A DNA stretch of 32,515 nt, taken from positions 1-32,515 of the forward strand of contig CACHBB010000012.1 of the NCBI GenBank assembly GCA_902577945.1, read 5' to 3'. Source of the stretch: an uncultured Alphaproteobacteria bacterium. GTDB lineage: Bacteria; Pseudomonadota; Alphaproteobacteria; HIMB59; GCA-002718135. The notes under the pieces were generated by a model that did not search any database, was not told where the DNA came from, and saw only the letters and a program-made list of their open reading frames with translations. This document shows, one piece after another, positions 13,607-32,017 of this stretch (position 1 is its first letter; each line of letters starts with the position of its first letter). A program made the translations under genes and the position numbers.

Positions 13607-14575
13607 ATGAAAGTAGCGATCTTAGGTAAAATACACCAAGATGGATTAGATTATCTAAAATCACAAAATGTATCAATTACTGAAATAAATGATTTTGACG
13701 ACCAAAACTCATTATCAAAAATCTCAGATGTAGAGGGAATTGTAATTAGAACAATGCATCTCGGGGAAGAAATTTTATCTAAATGTAGTAAATTAAAGAT
13801 TGTTGCCCGACATGGAGTTGGATATGACAATATAGACTTAGACTATCTTAATAAAAAAAAAATAGCTTTAGCTATTACAGGTCAATCAAATGCCGTAAGT
13901 GTATCAGAGCATGTTATGACAATGATGCTTGCACTTAGTAAAAATATTTTTGCTTCAGATAAACTTACTAGATCTAATGGTTTCGAATATAAAAGTGACT
14001 TGCAAGATTTCTTTGAATTGTATGAAAAGAATATTTTAATACTTGGGTTTGGAAGAATTGGGCAAGCATTAGCTAAAAGATGTTTGGGTTTCGAAATGGA
14101 AGTTTTAGTTTATGATCCATTCATTGATAATAAAAAAATAATATCTAGTGGATGCAAGCCCGTAAGTAAAACTCAGGGCTTTAAAATTGCAGATTATATT
14201 AGTATTCACTTACCTCTAAATAAAAATACAGAAAATTTAATTTCTGACGATGAATTTAAATTATTTAAGAAAAATCTCATTCTTATTAATACAGCAAGAG
14301 GTGGAATAGTTAATGAAAGCGCTTTGTATAATGCACTAAAGTCAAATAAAATTTTAGGGGCTGGTATTGATGTTTTTGAGCAAGAACCGCCAACTCAAAA
14401 TCATAAGTTATTTTCTTTAGAAAATATTATTTTAACTCCTCACAATTCTGCCTTAACACTTGAATGTAGAAAAAGAATGTCACTTGAATCTTGTATGAAT
14501 ATTATAAATTTTATAAACGATAAATCTAGTTTGAATAAAAATAATATTGTGAATTTGAGCAATTTGAATTTTTAA
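13607..14575 (+). CDS. Phosphoglycerate dehydrogenase-like D-2-hydroxyacid dehydrogenase
   Basis: This 322-residue NAD-dependent dehydrogenase is SerA-like but lacks the C-terminal ACT-type regulatory domain of full-length SerA, so amino-acid feedback control is unlikely. The NAD site is LGFGRIGQALA (G147-G152 core), with Asp at VYDPF following; the catalytic residues are R231 (NTARGGIV), E260 (DVFEQEPP) and H279 (LTPHNSAL). AGGA at 13597-13600 lies six bases before the ATG. It diverges from the IolD-like gene across a 100-base AT-rich gap and its stop overlaps that of the Rieske-like gene by four bases on the opposite strand. It likely reduces or oxidises a 2-keto/2-hydroxy acid from the neighbouring pathways; substrate unknown. 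Confidence 0.85.
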   Translation: MKVAILGKIHQDGLDYLKSQNVSITEINDFDDQNSLSKISDVEGIVIRTMHLGEEILSKCSKLKIVARHGVGYDNIDLDYLNKKKIALAITGQSNAVSVSEHVMTMMLALSKNIFASDKLTRSNGFEYKSDLQDFFELYEKNILILGFGRIGQALAKRCLGFEMEVLVYDPFIDNKKIISSGCKPVSKTQGFKIADYISIHLPLNKNTENLISDDEFKLFKKNLILINTARGGIVNESALYNALKSNKILGAGIDVFEQEPPTQNHKLFSLENIILTPHNSALTLECRKRMSLESCMNIINFINDKSSLNKNNIVNLSNLNF

Positions 14576-14892
14576 AGATTTAGATAAAGATTTCCATCTT
14601 CTTCAGTAACATCATAAATTCTCAATGTGTTCTTTTCCAAATCAGAAGTTGGATCACCTGAAACGATACTAAAAGTATTACCACAGCTTGAGCATTCTAA
14701 TTCTTCGCCCTCAACACCTGCTTCACTCAGCAAAGCTCTTTCAGCACAAGGACAGTTACCTTGCGTGGCAAAAAAACCTGACTCGAGTCTGAATATGGAA
14801 TAGTTAACATCTTCGTATTCAAAATTCTCAACTGAACCCACTTCAATATCATCTACTTCACCTATAAGGATTGGTTCAATTTCTTCATTCAT
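14572..14892 (-). CDS. Rieske-like small protein with four-cysteine ligand set
   Basis: The 106-residue soluble protein follows the small Rieske ferredoxin pattern, with N-terminal strands, a ligand loop, then a second loop ending in GNTFSIVSGDP. Canonical proteins have C-x-H then about 17 residues then C-x2-H. Here the same spacing is kept but both His are Cys: C47-P-C49 and C67-S-S-C70; I checked the codons (TGTCCTTGT and TGCTCAAGCTGT). It might hold an all-Cys [2Fe-2S] cluster, or a zinc or rubredoxin-like iron site. Acidic composition (many Glu/Asp) fits an electron carrier. It lies 61 bases downstream of the L-lactate dehydrogenase gene, at the end of the fuconate operon, so it could take its electrons; that is inference. 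Confidence 0.8.
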   Translation of the reverse strand: MNEEIEPILIGEVDDIEVGSVENFEYEDVNYSIFRLESGFFATQGNCPCAERALLSEAGVEGEELECSSCGNTFSIVSGDPTSDLEKNTLRIYDVTEEDGNLYLNL

Positions 14893-14953: not shown

Positions 14954-16108
14954 TTATCTGAATCTTAGATTTTTTCTTGTTAATTCTTGAATATTTGAAA
15001 CACCCATTAGCTTCATATCTCGCTCAATTTCATTTCTAAGGTTTGTTAAGCTTTTTTCAACTCCCTTTTGACCTCCAGCTGCTAGAGCATATAAATACAT
15101 TCTTCCCCCTGAACAGGCTTTTGCACCTAAAGAAAGAGCTTTAAGAACATGGGTACCTCTTCTGATACCACCTTCACAAATTACGTCAATCTTATCTCCA
15201 ACTGCATCAACAATTTCTGATAATTGATCAAAAGGAGATCTTGATCCATCCAATTGTCTTCCTCCATGATTGGATATCATTATCGCTGTCGCACCAACAT
15301 CTACTGCTTTTTTTGCATCATCAACAGACATAATACCTTTAATGGCAAATTGGCGGCCCCATTTTTTATTAATATTTTCAACATCCTTCCAGCTCATTGA
15401 ATTATCAAGCATCTTTGTAAAATAATCCCCAATTGTAGTCATAACAGTTGTCCCTTCACTAATATGATTTTTTAAATTACTCAATTCCCATTTTGGTCTA
15501 ATAAAATAATTGAGAGCCCACATTGGATGAAAAGCAAAACTAAACATGCTACTCAGCTTTAGTTTCATTGGAATAGTAAAACCAGTATACAAATCTCTTT
15601 CTCTATTACCTCCTACAGCGGTATCAACTGTAACAGCCATAGCCTCAAAGTTTGATGCTTTACATTGGTCAATTAGAGCATCATTTAAACCCTTGTCTTT
15701 ATGAACATATAATTGGAACAACTTAGGGGTGCTTACAAGTTTTGAAATTTCCTCAATACCTGCAGTTCCAAGAGATGAAATTCCAAACATTGTTCCATGT
15801 TTTTCAGCAGCCTTAGCTACTGCAATCTCACCATCATGATGAAATAATCTTTGAAGTGCTGTTGGGGCACAATATAATGGTATATCGAGTTTTTGTCCCA
15901 TTACAGTTGTTGACATATCTACCTTATCAACACCGCTTAATACATTGGGGACAAGATCACATTGATCAAAAGCCTCTGTATTACGACGATAAGTTATTTC
16001 ATCATCTGCTGCTCCATCTATGTAATGGAAGATAGGGCCTGGAAGCCTTCTTTTAGCAAGCTTTCTAAAATCCTTTACATTATGACAGTTATTGATGCTA
16101 CCAAACAT
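14954..16108 (-). CDS. lldD: FMN-dependent L-lactate dehydrogenase (alpha-hydroxy-acid oxidase family)
   Basis: This 384-residue enzyme oxidises an L-2-hydroxy acid, most likely L-lactate to pyruvate. It shows the family features in order: FHYIDGAADDE near residue 30, CAPTALQRLFH, the ISSLGTAGIEEI segment, FQLYVHKD, VTVDTAVGGNRERD, the FMN lysine in FAIKGIMS (K257), the active-site signature SNHGGRQLDG with base H281 and substrate Arg R284, and GGIRRGTHVLKAL. It acts at the membrane, feeding electrons to the respiratory chain in LldD. The start overlaps the FAH hydrolase stop by one base (TAATG). Being downstream of the hydrolase that would release L-lactate, it completes the 6-deoxyhexose route to two pyruvates. 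Confidence 0.9.
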   Translation of the reverse strand: MFGSINNCHNVKDFRKLAKRRLPGPIFHYIDGAADDEITYRRNTEAFDQCDLVPNVLSGVDKVDMSTTVMGQKLDIPLYCAPTALQRLFHHDGEIAVAKAAEKHGTMFGISSLGTAGIEEISKLVSTPKLFQLYVHKDKGLNDALIDQCKASNFEAMAVTVDTAVGGNRERDLYTGFTIPMKLKLSSMFSFAFHPMWALNYFIRPKWELSNLKNHISEGTTVMTTIGDYFTKMLDNSMSWKDVENINKKWGRQFAIKGIMSVDDAKKAVDVGATAIMISNHGGRQLDGSRSPFDQLSEIVDAVGDKIDVICEGGIRRGTHVLKALSLGAKACSGGRMYLYALAAGGQKGVEKSLTNLRNEIERDMKLMGVSNIQELTRKNLRFR

Positions 16109-16956
16109 TAAGCTGATATAGTTTTTTGAGTTTGTTCTCCAAGACCTTCTATTCCAAGCTTCATTTCATCACCAGGTTTCAAAAAAACTTGAGGGTTCAT
16201 CCCCATGCCAACACCTGGTGGTGTACCAGTTGAAATAATATCACCTGGTTGAAGTGACATAAATTGACTTAAATAGCTAATAAGAAAATTGACACCATAA
16301 ACCATTGTACTTGTTGATCCATCTTGCATTCTTTTTCCATTAACATCTAACCACATTTTTAAATTTTGTGGATCAGGAATTTCATCTGTAGTTACTAAAT
16401 ATGGTCCTATTGGTCCAAAGGTATCACATGACTTACCTTTGACCCACTGACCAGAATGTTCTATTTGAAATTCTCTTTCACTTAAATCATTTATAACGCA
16501 GTAACCCGCAATATGTGACTGAGATTCATTTTCAGAAATGTACTTTGCTTCTTTTCCTATAACAACACCAAGTTCAACCTCCCAATCAGACTTTACAGAT
16601 TTTCTTGGAATTTCTACATTATCATTTGGTCCAATTATTGCGCTGGTAGCTTTAGCAAAAATAATTGGTTCTGGTGGAACCTTCAAACCAGTTTCTTCTG
16701 CATGATCTGAATAATTTAATCCAATACAAATAAATTTTCCTACACTTTTTTTACAGACACATGGAGCAAGGCCGTCATGATTTTCTACTATTGGCAGAGT
16801 ATCAGTAGCAATTTTTTTAACCTCATTTAACTTTTCTATCTTTACGTTTTCATCATCCCAATCTTTTACTAAACTTGATGCATCTCGAATATTGCCTTTA
16901 TTATCTAATATTCCTGGTTTTACATCCTTAGCAATTCTGTATCTTAGTGTTTTCAT
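16108..16956 (-). CDS. FAH-family hydrolase, probable 2,4-diketo-3-deoxy-L-fuconate hydrolase
   Basis: The 282-residue product belongs to the fumarylacetoacetate hydrolase family. The metal site is visible as E126 and E128 (SDWEVELGVVIG) and D157 (VINDLSERE), with CIGLNYSDHAEE and STGTPPGVGMG around the active site. In the non-phosphorylating L-fucose and L-rhamnose routes such an enzyme splits the 2,4-diketo-3-deoxy acid into pyruvate and L-lactate. A frame upstream would start at 16968, but ATG at 16956 forms a TAATG overlap with the SDR stop, the junction type used repeatedly in this operon, and starts the family-like MKTLRYRI. Position between the SDR and the lactate dehydrogenase supports the substrate. 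Confidence 0.85.
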   Translation of the reverse strand: MKTLRYRIAKDVKPGILDNKGNIRDASSLVKDWDDENVKIEKLNEVKKIATDTLPIVENHDGLAPCVCKKSVGKFICIGLNYSDHAEETGLKVPPEPIIFAKATSAIIGPNDNVEIPRKSVKSDWEVELGVVIGKEAKYISENESQSHIAGYCVINDLSEREFQIEHSGQWVKGKSCDTFGPIGPYLVTTDEIPDPQNLKMWLDVNGKRMQDGSTSTMVYGVNFLISYLSQFMSLQPGDIISTGTPPGVGMGMNPQVFLKPGDEMKLGIEGLGEQTQKTISA

Positions 16957-17693
16957 TATAAAGTCCATCCTCCATCAATTAAATTTAATGTTCCTGTCAC
17001 AAAGCTTGATTCATCACTTGCTAAATATGTTGCAAGAGATGCAATTTCTTCAGGTTGTGCCAATCTTCCCATTGCTTGTCTTGCAATAAAATCTTCTTTT
17101 GCTTTTTTAGGGTCATCAGCCATATTTACTCTGCCTTGCCAAGATGGTGTTTCAACTGTTCCAGGTAAAATAGCGTTACATCTTATTCCTTTTTTTACAT
17201 AATCTATAGCAAGAGCTTTTACAAAACCATTTAAAGCAGCTTTTGTTACACCGTAAATAAATCTATTAGGTGCTCCTTTAACACTTGAAGCTGCAGAAGA
17301 AACAATAATCATATTACCTTTTCCTTGAGAAAGCATTTTAGGAAGTAAATTATAAGCCATCAAATATGCAGAATAAATATTTACATCAATAGATCTTTTA
17401 AATTCCTGATGATCACAATCCATTAATGTGCCATGATGTACAAAACCTACAGCATGAAAAAGAACATCTATAGTTTCTATGTTTGAGCAGAACTTTTCAA
17501 CTTCATCTTTATTGGTTGCATCAAGTTTTTGTATTTTAATTGCATTGTATTGACTATTTAGTTCATTTAATTTGTCTTCATTTATATCTGTAGCTATGAC
17601 GGAAGCACCTTCTTTTGCAAAAGCAATTGCGGTTGATCTTCCAATACCTTGTGCTGCTGCGGTGACAATTATTTTTTTATTTTTTAATCTCAT
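16956..17693 (-). CDS. SDR dehydrogenase, probable 2-keto-3-deoxy-L-fuconate (or L-rhamnonate) 4-dehydrogenase
   Basis: This is a classical short-chain dehydrogenase of 245 residues. The cofactor motif TAAAQGIG (11-18) and an Asp after the second strand (ATDINED) point to NAD; the catalytic Ser lies in VSSAAS and the YxxxK pair is Y147/K151. NAILPGTVETPSWQGRV and RQAMGRLAQPEEIA resemble the 2-keto-3-deoxy-L-fuconate dehydrogenase/DHRS6 group. It would oxidise C4 of the product of the dehydratase encoded just upstream, making the 2,4-diketo acid for the FAH hydrolase. Its start overlaps the dehydratase stop by four bases (ATGA) and its stop overlaps the hydrolase start. Which C4 epimer is used, or both, is not evident. 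Confidence 0.85.
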   Translation of the reverse strand: MRLKNKKIIVTAAAQGIGRSTAIAFAKEGASVIATDINEDKLNELNSQYNAIKIQKLDATNKDEVEKFCSNIETIDVLFHAVGFVHHGTLMDCDHQEFKRSIDVNIYSAYLMAYNLLPKMLSQGKGNMIIVSSAASSVKGAPNRFIYGVTKAALNGFVKALAIDYVKKGIRCNAILPGTVETPSWQGRVNMADDPKKAKEDFIARQAMGRLAQPEEIASLATYLASDESSFVTGTLNLIDGGWTL

Positions 17694-18988
17694 TTATTAT
17701 TCTTCCAATATTTTCCATTAGGAAATGAAAACTCATTAACAGACTTTTCTTTCATTTCAATAGAATATCCATGATCAAGAGGTGGCATATAATTACCATT
17801 TTCTATTTTACATGGATAAATAAAGTGTTCATGCAAGCTATCTTGATATTCAACTACCTTATCCTCTTTTGAACCATTAATTAATACATAATCAATCATA
17901 CATAAATGTTGGACATATTCACATAAGCCGACACCTCCAGCATGAGGATATACGGGAACATTAAATTTATGTGCCATTAGTAAAACAGTAATTATTTCAT
18001 TTATACTTCCCAAACGACAACTATCAATTTGACAAACATTCATAGAACCAGATTCTAAAAATTGTTTAAACATTATTCTTCCCCCACAAGCCTCACCTGT
18101 TGCTAGTCTAATATTGCCAACCGCTTTTTTAATTTTTGTAAATCCCATAATATCATCTGGACTAGTTGGTTCTTCTACAAAAAATAAATTAAATTTTTTG
18201 TAGGCATTTATATGATCAATTGATTGTTGAACACTCCACTGTTGATTTGCATCAACCATAATATAGCAATCATCTCCTATTGTTTTTCTAATTAATTCAA
18301 GTCTTTTGATATCTGCTTCAAGATCTAAACCAACTTTTATTTTAAAATGTTTCCAGCCCTTAGCCATATATTGCTTACATAACTGAATTGTTTTTTCATC
18401 AGAATAGCCAAGCCATCCTGCAGCTGTGGTGTATGAAGGATATCCCTCTTGCAATAATGTTTGTATTCTTTTTTCTTTATAATTTTGACTATTTTGTAAA
18501 ATGTTAAGAGCCTCTTCTGGTTTTAAAACATCTTCGATATATTTAAAAGTAAGCCAACTGAGTATTTTTTTAGGTTCACTTTCAACAACAAATTTCCATA
18601 AAGGTTTTTTATTTTTTTTAGCAATTAAATCCCATAAGCAATTAAATATTGCTGAGACGGCCATATGTACAACACCTTTTTCAGGTCCTAACCACCGTAA
18701 TTGACTGTGATCTACACATTTAAACCAAAGATTACCTATATTATTTTCTAAATCTTCAAGATCCATGTTTTCGAAAATAGGAAAAAAATGTTTTATGCAC
18801 TCTGCTACAATATCATTACCTTTACCGATGGTAAAAGCTATACCATAACCTTTTAGATTAGGATCATTAGTAATGGCCGTAACATAAGTTGCTGAATAAT
18901 CTGGATCAGTATGAATTGCATCAGATCCAGTTAGGTCTTTCGAAGTTGGAAATCTTACGTCATCAACTTTAAATTTCTCAATTTTCAT
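17690..18988 (-). CDS. fucD: L-fuconate dehydratase (enolase superfamily)
   Basis: The 432-residue enzyme dehydrates L-fuconate to 2-keto-3-deoxy-L-fuconate. It follows the L-fuconate dehydratase/ENOSF1 family from its N terminus (DVRFPTSKDLTGSDAI, DPDYSATYV, FTIGKGNDI). Active-site residues are in place: Lys pair in HFKIKVG (K216, K218), metal ligands D246 (MVDANQQW), E272 (FVEEP) and E299 (LATGEACG), and the D322/H349 dyad (YPHAGGVGLCE). Length and positions nearly coincide with the characterised Xanthomonas enzyme as I recall it. The start overlaps the CoA-transferase stop by one base, the end overlaps the SDR start by four. Other acid sugars are possible, but the SDR, hydrolase and lactate dehydrogenase that follow fit fuconate well. 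Confidence 0.9.
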   Translation of the reverse strand: MKIEKFKVDDVRFPTSKDLTGSDAIHTDPDYSATYVTAITNDPNLKGYGIAFTIGKGNDIVAECIKHFFPIFENMDLEDLENNIGNLWFKCVDHSQLRWLGPEKGVVHMAVSAIFNCLWDLIAKKNKKPLWKFVVESEPKKILSWLTFKYIEDVLKPEEALNILQNSQNYKEKRIQTLLQEGYPSYTTAAGWLGYSDEKTIQLCKQYMAKGWKHFKIKVGLDLEADIKRLELIRKTIGDDCYIMVDANQQWSVQQSIDHINAYKKFNLFFVEEPTSPDDIMGFTKIKKAVGNIRLATGEACGGRIMFKQFLESGSMNVCQIDSCRLGSINEIITVLLMAHKFNVPVYPHAGGVGLCEYVQHLCMIDYVLINGSKEDKVVEYQDSLHEHFIYPCKIENGNYMPPLDHGYSIEMKEKSVNEFSFPNGKYWKNNK

Positions 18989-28510: not shown

Positions 28511-28840
28511 ATGGCTATACAAAGATATGGAATGGCTGTCAGGTTGAAAGATGAGAAAAGACAATATTATATTGACAATCATGCAAATGTTTGGCCTGAA
28601 GTTTTAGAAGAGTTAAAAAAAATTAATGTTCAAAATTATAGTATCTTCTTAAAAGAAGATTTTATGTTTGGATATCTAGAGTATACAGGGAATGATTTTG
28701 ATGGCGATATGGGAAAGATGCAACAAATACCAATTGTAGATAAATGGACTAAACTAATGATAGATTGCTTTAATCCTTTCCCAAATAATGACGACAATGA
28801 ATCCTGGGTTATGATGGATCAAATTTTTTTTATGGAATAA
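28511..28840 (+). CDS. rhaM: L-rhamnose mutarotase family protein (RhaM, COG3254)
   Basis: The 109-residue product interconverts alpha and beta anomers of a 6-deoxyhexose. Its length is that of RhaM, and the family marks are present: RYGMAVRLKDEK at the start, the catalytic His in YIDNHANVWPEV (H24), NYSIFLKEDFMFGYLEY and a C-terminal WVMMDQIF. The strongest Shine-Dalgarno of the window (AGGAGG, 28501-28506) precedes the ATG. It heads a plus-strand operon with the epimerase-like gene three bases later. Homologues serve L-rhamnose and, in some bacteria, L-fucose; both fit here because the window codes for L-rhamnonate and L-fuconate dehydratases. Confidence 0.88.
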   Translation: MAIQRYGMAVRLKDEKRQYYIDNHANVWPEVLEELKKINVQNYSIFLKEDFMFGYLEYTGNDFDGDMGKMQQIPIVDKWTKLMIDCFNPFPNNDDNESWVMMDQIFFME

Positions 28841-28843
28841 TTA

Positions 28844-29806
28844 ATGACTGTTTTAGTTACAGGTGGTTTAGGATTTATTGGATCTAAGGTTGTTTTGCAA
28901 TTACTAAAAAAAGATATTGATGTTTTAGTGACAGATCTAGATATTGTAAAAAATAAAGACAAACTTGAAAGTAACATATTAAAAATTGGGAAAAATAAAG
29001 ACAAAGTAAAATATCAAAAATTAGATATTACCAATTATAAACAAATTGAAAATATTTTTCAAAATAACAAAATAGATTCAGTTATTAATTTAGCGTATGG
29101 AATAGGAACTATATGCGAAGAAAATCCATTACTTGCTAGTAAAATAAATATTGTTGGCACAACTTCTATATTTGAAATGATTGTGAAGTATAAAATCAGA
29201 CGATTAGTATTTGCAAGTAGCGAAACTGTTTATGGTGCTTATCAAGAATATTTTGGAAACAGAGCCGTAACAGAAGAAGATTACTCAGGTATTAATAATC
29301 ACTTTTATACATATGGTGTGATGAAACTTCTTAATGAGTTTATGGCTGAAAAATATATCAAGAAGCATGGATGTAGTATTGCGTATACTAGACCATCAGT
29401 TGTCTTTGGTTATGGAAGGCAAAATACCGCAATAAACTGGGCCGAAGATTTTGCAGCTAAACCTGCTTTAGGAAAACCAGCGCATTTACCATTTTCAAAA
29501 AAAAATAGAGACAATTGGATTTATGTAGATGATTGTGCTGAACAACTTGTTCGTTTAGCATTAAAAGAAACTCTAAACTATTCTTGCTTTAATACAGGTG
29601 CTGAAACTTTAGATGGTGCACAATTAGAAGCAACTGTTAAAAAAATAATTCCAGATGCAAAAATCTATTTTGATGAAAATGTAAAATCAACACCATTAAT
29701 TGATGATCAAAATGATGAAAGAATTCGAGAAGAAATAGATTTTAATCCAAGATCCTTTGAAGAAGGCGTTAAATGTCTTATACAAGATGTAAGAGAAAGT
29801 AATTGA
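28844..29806 (+). CDS. NAD-dependent epimerase/dehydratase family protein (extended SDR)
   Basis: The 320-residue product is an extended short-chain dehydrogenase with the N-terminal TGGLGFIG motif (6-13), Asp after the second strand (VTDLDI), the catalytic Ser in FASSETVYG and the Y158-x3-K162 pair (YTYGVMK). The family holds nucleotide-sugar epimerases, but also free-sugar and uronate dehydrogenases. The setting, between a sugar mutarotase and a MetE-like gene with gaps of three bases each, favours action on a free sugar or sugar acid rather than on a UDP-sugar. It could supply the missing sugar 1-dehydrogenase. Substrate undetermined. Confidence 0.82.
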   Translation: MTVLVTGGLGFIGSKVVLQLLKKDIDVLVTDLDIVKNKDKLESNILKIGKNKDKVKYQKLDITNYKQIENIFQNNKIDSVINLAYGIGTICEENPLLASKINIVGTTSIFEMIVKYKIRRLVFASSETVYGAYQEYFGNRAVTEEDYSGINNHFYTYGVMKLLNEFMAEKYIKKHGCSIAYTRPSVVFGYGRQNTAINWAEDFAAKPALGKPAHLPFSKKNRDNWIYVDDCAEQLVRLALKETLNYSCFNTGAETLDGAQLEATVKKIIPDAKIYFDENVKSTPLIDDQNDERIREEIDFNPRSFEEGVKCLIQDVRESN

Positions 29807-29809
29807 TAT

Positions 29810-30838
29810 ATGAGTTACACAACAACAGTCACAGGTAGTTATCCTAGAAAAGAAGTACAAAAGGATACACTTCGTAAACCAAGTGTTTCTGAAGAAGAGT
29901 CTTTTGAAATGATTAAATGGGCAGTTAAAGAACAGTCTGATCTTGGACTGGATATTATTACAGATGGTGAAGGGTACAGAGAGAACATGTATTGGTTTTA
30001 TCAATTAAGATTGGATGGAGTGGATGCCTTAAATAAAATTCGAAAAGATTTTACACTAGGTGGTTCAATGAAAGGTGTGGATTTAAGTAAGACTCATGGA
30101 ACAAAAGGATTTGGAATTGAATGTGCAGTTGTAAAAGATGAAATTAAAAATCTGAAAACAGGATTGGCAAAAAAATGGAGAGTGGCTAGAGATAATACTC
30201 CTACTAATGTCAGAGTGAAACAAACAATAACAGGTCCTCATATGTTGGCAAGATTTAGTGTTAATCAGAGACCTGATTTGTATCCAGATGATATAGCTTT
30301 AGCAAAAGCTTATGCGAACGCATTAACCAAAGAACTAGAAGAAGTTGTAAATGAAGGATGTGATTATGTTCAATTTGATGAACCTGTGTGGACTGAAAAT
30401 GTAAACGAAACAAAATGGGCTGCAGAGATACTAAATGGAATTATTGAAAAATTTCCTAATGTAAATTTTAACCTTCATGTTTGCGGTGGTAATGCACATC
30501 GAAAAAGAGGTTTTTTTGGAAAATACACAGATATGATTGAAGCTTTTAAAATTTTAAAAGTTAACGAAATACATTTAGAACATTGTAGTTTGCATTATAA
30601 AATGTTGGATGTTTTTAATGATTGGAAATTTGATGGAAAAGTATCTCTTGGAGTTATTGATCAAAGAATTGATAATACAGAAACTGAAGAAGATATTATT
30701 AATGCCATAAAACCTGCGCTAGAATATTTTCCTAAAGAAAAAATTTTGCTTACAAGTGAATGTGGTTTTGGACATGTGCCAATAGATATTGTAAAAAATA
30801 AAATAAAAATGTTAGTTGCTACAGCAAAAAAACTATAG
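29810..30838 (+). CDS. MetE C-terminal-domain-like methyltransferase (cobalamin-independent methionine synthase family)
   Basis: The 342-residue product corresponds to the C-terminal catalytic barrel of MetE without its N-terminal half. It starts with TTTVTGSYPRK, carries DEP in YVQFDEPVW (D190), and keeps the zinc ligands H223 and C225 (NLHVCGGN), E257 (HLEHC) and C318 (LTSECGFGH). Stand-alone members transfer methyl groups to thiols with other methyl donors than folate, or have unknown roles. It is the last gene of the mutarotase operon, three bases after the epimerase-like gene, and its end touches the L-rhamnonate dehydratase stop on the opposite strand. Context hints at demethylation of a methylated sugar or sugar acid, an untested idea; a methionine synthesis role is the conservative alternative. 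Confidence 0.82.
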   Translation: MSYTTTVTGSYPRKEVQKDTLRKPSVSEEESFEMIKWAVKEQSDLGLDIITDGEGYRENMYWFYQLRLDGVDALNKIRKDFTLGGSMKGVDLSKTHGTKGFGIECAVVKDEIKNLKTGLAKKWRVARDNTPTNVRVKQTITGPHMLARFSVNQRPDLYPDDIALAKAYANALTKELEEVVNEGCDYVQFDEPVWTENVNETKWAAEILNGIIEKFPNVNFNLHVCGGNAHRKRGFFGKYTDMIEAFKILKVNEIHLEHCSLHYKMLDVFNDWKFDGKVSLGVIDQRIDNTETEEDIINAIKPALEYFPKEKILLTSECGFGHVPIDIVKNKIKMLVATAKKL

Positions 30839-32017
30839 TTAGATTTCCTCTAACTCAACTTCAGTATTAAGCTCAGCTCCAAAACCTGGAAGATCAGTTA
30901 AACTAACTTCTCCATTTACAGGTACAGGTTCGTTGGTAAACATCTTACCAAAAATAGGAACCACTTCTGTTGCTTTTGGATGTAAATTTATAAACTCATT
31001 AAAGGGTGTTAAAGTTGAAGCGATACCAAAGTTATATGCATATACACCACTACAGTGGGGGATAACAATCATATCATAAGCTGATGCCATGGCTGCAATT
31101 CGTAATGTTTCTGTCATTCCACAGAGAGTAAGATCTGGTTGAAGAATATCTACTGATCTATCTCTTATAATATTTCTAAATCCATAACGAGAATTGGTAT
31201 GCTCACCGGTTGCCCATTTTTGCCAAGGGCACGCTTCTTTAATTAACTTATGACTTTCAAGATCATGAGGTGGAAGAGCTTCTTCAATCCAAAATAGATT
31301 TGCTTCTCTTACAGCATTTGCTAAATCAATCGCGTATGGTACATCTAGTGACATATAACAATCCACCATCAATCGATAATCATGCCCAACTTGTTTTCTA
31401 GTTTCCATTATATATTCTTGATTTTTCTTAAGGCCTTTGATGCCATCTCCTGGACCATAAGGTAAGGGTATTTTTGAACCTACATGTCCCCAATCTTGAG
31501 CAAGCTTTGCTTCTGGACCTGTTACATATGTTTGAAGTTTATCTCTAACTTTACCACCTATCATTTTATAAACTGGCTCACCTCTAACTTTTCCAATTAA
31601 ATCCCATAAAGCTAAATCGATACCAGCTATTGTATTCATAACAACACCATTTTGACCTGAGTAAGGAATTGCTGCTCTGTACATTTGATCATAAAGAAGA
31701 TTTAAGTCTCTAGCATCAGCACCAATTAAGAAGCGGTTTAAGTGATTTTTAATTATCCAACTTGCAATATAACCACCATAAGCAGTTGCGTAACCTTGGT
31801 GACCTCCTTCAGTTGTTACTTCTATAAAAATACCTTTAAGTACATCCATACCCCATGAAGATCTTGACTCCTGGAAAGTATTATAAATTGACATTGGGTT
31901 TGCAATAATTGTATCGTTTATCCAGTGACCTGCAGCGTGATCAGTGTAGTCTGCACCAGCACTTTGAGTTTTAACAATCGACACTTTTATTTCTGATATT
32001 TTGTATCGTTTATCCAT
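30839..32017 (-). CDS. rhmD: L-rhamnonate dehydratase (enolase superfamily)
   Basis: The 392-residue enzyme converts L-rhamnonate to 2-keto-3-deoxy-L-rhamnonate. It parallels E. coli RhmD along its length: GADYTDHAAGHWINDT (with the RhmD-type active-site His, H31), PMSIYNTFQESRSSWG, IDLALWDLIGK, metal ligands D219 (LMVDCYMS), E245 (WIEEALPP) and E272 (ATGEHTN), D295 (ILQPD) and the base H321 (VIPHCSGVY), then NEPVPVNGEV and PGFGAEL at the end. The start codon lies at 32017, divergent from a further binding-protein gene at 32138. It stands alone on its strand, so it is probably transcribed from the 120-base divergent gap. The C4 oxidation and hydrolysis steps are available from the fuconate operon. 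Confidence 0.92.
   Translation of the reverse strand: MDKRYKISEIKVSIVKTQSAGADYTDHAAGHWINDTIIANPMSIYNTFQESRSSWGMDVLKGIFIEVTTEGGHQGYATAYGGYIASWIIKNHLNRFLIGADARDLNLLYDQMYRAAIPYSGQNGVVMNTIAGIDLALWDLIGKVRGEPVYKMIGGKVRDKLQTYVTGPEAKLAQDWGHVGSKIPLPYGPGDGIKGLKKNQEYIMETRKQVGHDYRLMVDCYMSLDVPYAIDLANAVREANLFWIEEALPPHDLESHKLIKEACPWQKWATGEHTNSRYGFRNIIRDRSVDILQPDLTLCGMTETLRIAAMASAYDMIVIPHCSGVYAYNFGIASTLTPFNEFINLHPKATEVVPIFGKMFTNEPVPVNGEVSLTDLPGFGAELNTEVELEEI

Follow-up and report, generated by a model that had tools for sequence, protein, structure and literature searches.

A gene on the minus strand at positions 14572 to 14892 of the window (the whole stretch of DNA analyzed, 32,515 nucleotides) encodes a protein of 106 amino acids that is a genuine, conserved and family-restricted variant of a known fold, the Rieske fold, in which the Cys2His2 ligand set is replaced by four cysteines in the pattern C47-x-C49-x17-C67-x2-C70. 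The protein is homologous to Rieske ferredoxins, its relatives form a single clade in which the four cysteines are invariant, and its gene is linked to an operon for sugar-acid catabolism. Rieske proteins are defined by two histidine ligands, which set the potential and its pH dependence, and a conserved natural version with four cysteines would show how far this scaffold can change. The product is most likely an all-thiolate metal protein, perhaps with a low-potential [2Fe-2S] cluster or with a mononuclear iron or zinc site. In the reading that we prefer, to which we assign a probability of about 45%, it is a His-to-Cys variant of single origin that binds a [2Fe-2S] cluster through four cysteines and works as a one-electron carrier; of this reading we infer the metal, the type of cluster and the redox role.

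The ligand motif and its conservation

The open reading frame begins with an ATG at 14892 and its range includes the stop codon. In the translation, cysteine occurs only at residues 47, 49, 67 and 70, histidine does not occur at all, and C49 and C67 are separated by 17 residues. The codons of the first cluster loop (C47-P48-C49) are found at 14746 to 14754 and those of the second (C67-S-S-C70) at 14683 to 14694, both on the minus strand. The protein is acidic, with a pI of about 4.05 and a charge of about -21. An initial annotation of this DNA had described a Rieske-like protein with cysteine at both histidine positions in the exact Rieske spacing, and the translation and the invariance of these residues among relatives confirm the motif that it described.

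With one genome scanned per species, 40 loci with the four-Cys gene were found. All four cysteines are identical in a set of 40 distinct proteins with identities as low as about 65%. In a family-wide search the complete C-x-C-x17-C-x2-C pattern was kept in all four-Cys homologues (48/48 distinct sequences), and the spacing of 17 residues is constant in 42/42 distinct motif stretches. The residues that flank the cysteines (46, 48, 50, 68 and 69) vary among the 40 distinct sequences, residue 48, between C47 and C49, being among the most variable positions of the protein (2.5 bits). The first loop is always CxC, with a cysteine at the histidine position, and in none of the proteins is it CxxC, while the consensus of the second loop is C-[PA]-[ST]-C-G-x-x-[FY], with G71 present in 38 of 40. 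The median dN/dS of the gene is about 0.11, close to that of the neighboring short-chain dehydrogenase/reductase (SDR) gene, which indicates that the reading frame is a genuine gene maintained by purifying selection. A sequencing or assembly artefact as the source of the four cysteines is ruled out by their occurrence in 86 genomes and 48 distinct sequences.

Homology to Rieske ferredoxins

Both its sequence and its predicted structure identify the four-Cys protein as a true Rieske homologue. The Pfam Rieske family (PF00355) matches the window protein with an E-value of 3.5e-4 and 20.9 bits, narrowly above the cut-off of 20.3; the proteins of loci L139, L140, L142, L141 and L070 also score above it (20.7-31.5 bits) and that of L061 below it (17.4 bits). 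NCBIfam Rieske-ferredoxin families give E-values of 1.7e-9 to 1e-6, every one of them below its own cut-off, and a search of the PDB returns Rieske ferredoxins at an E-value of 4e-6, the best of which belong to the carbazole, biphenyl and toluene oxygenase systems. An AlphaFold2 model built from 23 relatives has a mean pLDDT of 89.6, and Rieske ferredoxins rank first in its comparison with known structures by both Foldseek (E 7e-8) and VIA-align (Z 17.7, 1.7 Å over 101 residues). Restoring histidine at residues 49 and 70 in silico lifts the Pfam score from 20.9 to 37.8 bits, so that the departure of the protein from the family lies mainly in its ligands.

These results bear on the idea that the protein is a plain zinc ribbon that resembles Rieske proteins by chance. 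A CxxCG knuckle in the second loop and weak zinc-ribbon matches would fit this idea, but the match to Rieske ferredoxins extends over the full length in sequence and model and the Pfam score climbs once the histidines are restored, so that a plain zinc ribbon is scarcely credible and, as far as the models go, was rejected. On the other hand, the protein lacks the defining Cys2His2 ligands (CxH...CxxH), as cysteine occupies both histidine positions in all sequences, and it should therefore be classified as a variant rather than among the Rieske [2Fe-2S] proteins.

The oxygenase ferredoxins CarAc (1vck), BphF/BphA3 (1fqt/2e4p) and T4moC (1vm9) share with the four-Cys protein the fold, length, spacing of the cluster loops and small acidic character, as well as the surrounding motifs LSE...EC...F.I.SG. 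It differs from them in having cysteine for both histidines and in being encoded in a deoxy-sugar-acid operon with neither oxygenase nor reductase nearby. The closest homologue found has about 30% identity and is a Rieske ferredoxin of the ordinary CxH/CxxH type, which many of the genomes with the four-Cys gene also encode (e.g., L072:5983-6297). Unlike the four-Cys protein, this ferredoxin has Cys2His2 ligands, and its gene adjoins that of a ferredoxin reductase of the Reductase_C type and lies near fatty-acid desaturase/hydroxylase genes. At L072:4666-10070 and in L080, the genes for the Rieske ferredoxin and the Reductase_C reductase occur together with two membrane desaturase/hydroxylase genes and a ketopantoate hydroxymethyltransferase-like gene, apparently a three-component membrane oxygenase system in the same genus.

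Distribution and origin

The four-Cys gene is present in 86 of the 162 genomes of the order. Of these, 82 are among the 102 genomes in the window's genus, and the other four (G841, G882, G885 and G887) each represent another genus of the family; their divergent proteins keep all four cysteines. Five of the six genera of the family thus contain the gene. Neither the sixth genus (G888) nor any of the 52 sister-family genomes has it. The entire locus is missing from 21 genomes of the family, probably because they are incomplete or because strains differ. Outside the family, samples of the class (385 genomes) and of the phylum (398) gave only best matches with CxH/CxxH ligands, in a search that four cysteines on a distant Rieske background would escape. 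Plasmids gave only four matches, all below 36% identity, and viral contigs none. No natural four-Cys Rieske protein was found in a search of open-licence papers.

The four-Cys proteins group together as one clade with 100/100 support in a tree built from 46 sequences, and a long branch joins this clade, with weak support, among the CxH/CxxH ferredoxins of the same genomes. The simplest reading of this topology is a single origin from a Cys2His2 ferredoxin. In the mechanism that we propose, both histidine ligands of an ordinary Rieske-type ferredoxin would have been replaced by cysteine, once, and the four thiolates, held at the exact Rieske positions, would carry an iron-sulfur site, a low-potential [2Fe-2S] cluster with four cysteine ligands.

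The proposed metal site

Engineered variants of the Sulfolobus ferredoxin ARF provide the closest comparison for such a site. The H64C substitution alone gives a low-potential [2Fe-2S] cluster with 3Cys:1His ligation, which makes this ligand set a plausible intermediate step toward the four-Cys protein, while H44C alone failed (PMC2946596). The double mutant H44C/H64C, which carries the same two substitutions and thus the same ligand pattern as the natural protein, is an artificial construct in which cluster assembly largely failed (PMC2946596), and this failure counts against a four-Cys [2Fe-2S] site. The natural protein offers a convenient way to examine the reasons for this failure of the engineered one. 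In favor of a dinuclear site in the Rieske geometry is the first loop, which stays CxC and never becomes CxxC. It is our tentative view, held at somewhat short of even odds, that the protein is a natural Rieske fold with a stable all-Cys [2Fe-2S] cluster of a kind that assembles poorly when engineered, and that it acts as a low-potential carrier in the deoxy-sugar catabolism of marine bacteria.

The four cysteines could also hold a single metal ion on the Rieske scaffold, as a rubredoxin-like Fe(Cys)4 or a structural Zn(Cys)4 site, which we judge possible though rather doubtful. For electrons from lactate, a rubredoxin-like potential would also be a better fit than a very low one. The second loop with its conserved G71 is a CxxCG knuckle like those of rubredoxins and zinc ribbons, and it gives weak zinc-ribbon matches, to LysW with an E-value of 9e-4 and, in a separate search, to RPAB4 and LysW with E-values of about 0.1; together these features favor a mononuclear site. 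Moreover, a rubredoxin-like mononuclear Fe(Cys)4 site does form in the engineered ARF triple mutant H44I/K45C/H64C, likewise a Rieske scaffold with four cysteines (PMC2946596). That mutant has CxxC in both loops and its site required CxxC in the first, whereas the first loop is CxC in every four-Cys protein, and the two CxxC knuckles typical of rubredoxins and zinc ribbons such as LysW and RPAB4 are therefore not found. The four-Cys protein differs from these proteins also in that its whole fold is that of a Rieske protein.

A metal-free redox or scaffold protein, in which the cysteines would form disulfides or act as reactive thiols, is in our judgement quite improbable. Its precedent is NirD, the small subunit of nitrite reductase, an example of a Rieske fold that has no cluster; as in the four-Cys protein its ligand positions are altered, and NirD chains are among the fold matches of the model. 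NirD has no ligand set, in contrast to the four invariant thiolates in exact ligand spacing of the four-Cys protein: the former lost its ligands and the latter did not. By sequence, the window protein scores 32.7 bits against the NirD model (NCBIfam TIGR02378) and does not reach its cut-off of 74.65.

Whether the site is a low-potential cluster, as we prefer, or mononuclear, the protein could supply a carrier with a Rieske fold of either type. In the preferred reading, this acidic protein would probably serve as a small one-electron carrier, expressed with an operon of the L-fucose/L-rhamnose type. Counting against the preferred [2Fe-2S] carrier is the lack of a reductase gene in this operon, together with the finding that no ferredoxin reductase of the Reductase_C type was detected in three genomes with the four-Cys gene (G000, G841 and G882, the first two of which are incomplete), from which the protein also seems independent of that reductase.

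The operon

The genes upstream indicate that the four-Cys gene sits in an operon of the L-fucose/L-rhamnose type, the predicted products of which are pyruvate and L-lactate. All of them are on the minus strand. At 17690 to 18988 lies a gene for an enolase-superfamily protein like L-fuconate dehydratase (PDB 2hne/2hxt, E 1e-136), followed at 16956 to 17693 by the SDR dehydrogenase, a probable 2-keto-3-deoxy-L-fuconate/rhamnonate 4-dehydrogenase whose role is suggested by its position, and at 16108 to 16968 by a FAH-fold hydrolase closest to 2,4-diketo-3-deoxy-L-rhamnonate/fuconate hydrolase, an enzyme that yields pyruvate and L-lactate. The last gene before the four-Cys gene (14954 to 16108) encodes an FMN-dependent alpha-hydroxyacid dehydrogenase of the L-lactate type (Pfam FMN_dh, 2e-129; the L-lactate dehydrogenase subfamily model stays below its cut-off), the hydropathy of which reveals a hydrophobic insert at about residues 175-203. 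Enzymes of these kinds convert L-fuconate or L-rhamnonate to pyruvate and L-lactate (PMC11199699), and rhamnose regulons elsewhere include lactate dehydrogenase genes (PMC3870299), so that a lactate dehydrogenase in this operon makes sense. The operon encodes sugar-acid enzymes, and partner genes for an oxygenase or a ferredoxin reductase were not found in it. The four-Cys protein adds an unexplained component to the deoxy-sugar catabolism of open-ocean bacteria.

On the other side, a D-2-hydroxyacid dehydrogenase gene on the plus strand (13607 to 14575) converges on the four-Cys gene and overlaps its 3' end by 4 bp; this gene holds its place in almost all relatives.

The lactate dehydrogenase as a possible redox partner

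The four-Cys protein had been proposed, from its position downstream of the FMN dehydrogenase gene, to be the electron partner of this enzyme. The position is as described, the two genes being separated by 61 bp on the same strand, and the adjacency is conserved, as nearly all family loci on sufficiently long contigs keep the order SDR, hydrolase, dehydrogenase and four-Cys gene. In addition, the dehydrogenase occurs in 84 of the 86 genomes that have the four-Cys gene, and one of the two exceptions is a contig end. For most genomes, whole-genome co-occurrence was nevertheless rejected as proof of a partnership, since linked genes are expected to occur together and the whole locus is missing from 21 genomes of the family.

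Against an obligate link speak loci in which either gene occurs without the other. G882 has the order SDR, hydrolase and four-Cys gene, and no dehydrogenase was found in its operon or in its genome, which is 91% complete. Conversely, dehydrogenase orthologues without the four-Cys gene are present in 31 of the 52 sister-family genomes (G065 and 30 more) and in G888, which retains the dehydrogenase and the convergent 2-hydroxyacid dehydrogenase and has lost the hydrolase and the four-Cys gene. In G065 the operon is complete through the dehydrogenase and the four-Cys gene is missing, which shows that the pathway can also run without it. Within the family, the four-Cys gene tracks the hydrolase more closely than the dehydrogenase. 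The hydrophobic insert of the dehydrogenase, furthermore, resembles that of membrane-bound relatives that reduce quinone. It is therefore unlikely that the four-Cys protein is the dedicated electron acceptor of the dehydrogenase, a matter separate from that of its metal, and the enzyme is best regarded as a candidate redox partner and not as an obligate one. Four further apparent exceptions (G052, G845, G842 and G886) were rejected as contig ends. At L051:4802-5954 (G001:C10) the dehydrogenase gene is frameshifted and the four-Cys gene intact; this case was left out of the argument because the frameshift may be a sequencing error.

Several minor observations concern the history of the locus. 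The sister-family locus L155 (G065:C4) contains the entire operon from RraA to the dehydrogenase, and the search for the hydrolase was empty in the 51 relatives of this genome, an isolation that suggests horizontal transfer without the four-Cys gene. In G888, the convergent 2-hydroxyacid dehydrogenase gene still adjoins that of the FMN dehydrogenase. The identity of the FMN dehydrogenase ranges from 73 to 95% between loci L032-L071, independently of its neighbors, which suggests that this gene has recombined or been replaced within the operon. Finally, inspection by eye of the reading frames at 28511-32017 of the window points to a RhaM/FucU-like mutarotase, an epimerase and a second enolase-superfamily dehydratase, which look like additional genes for deoxy-sugar metabolism.
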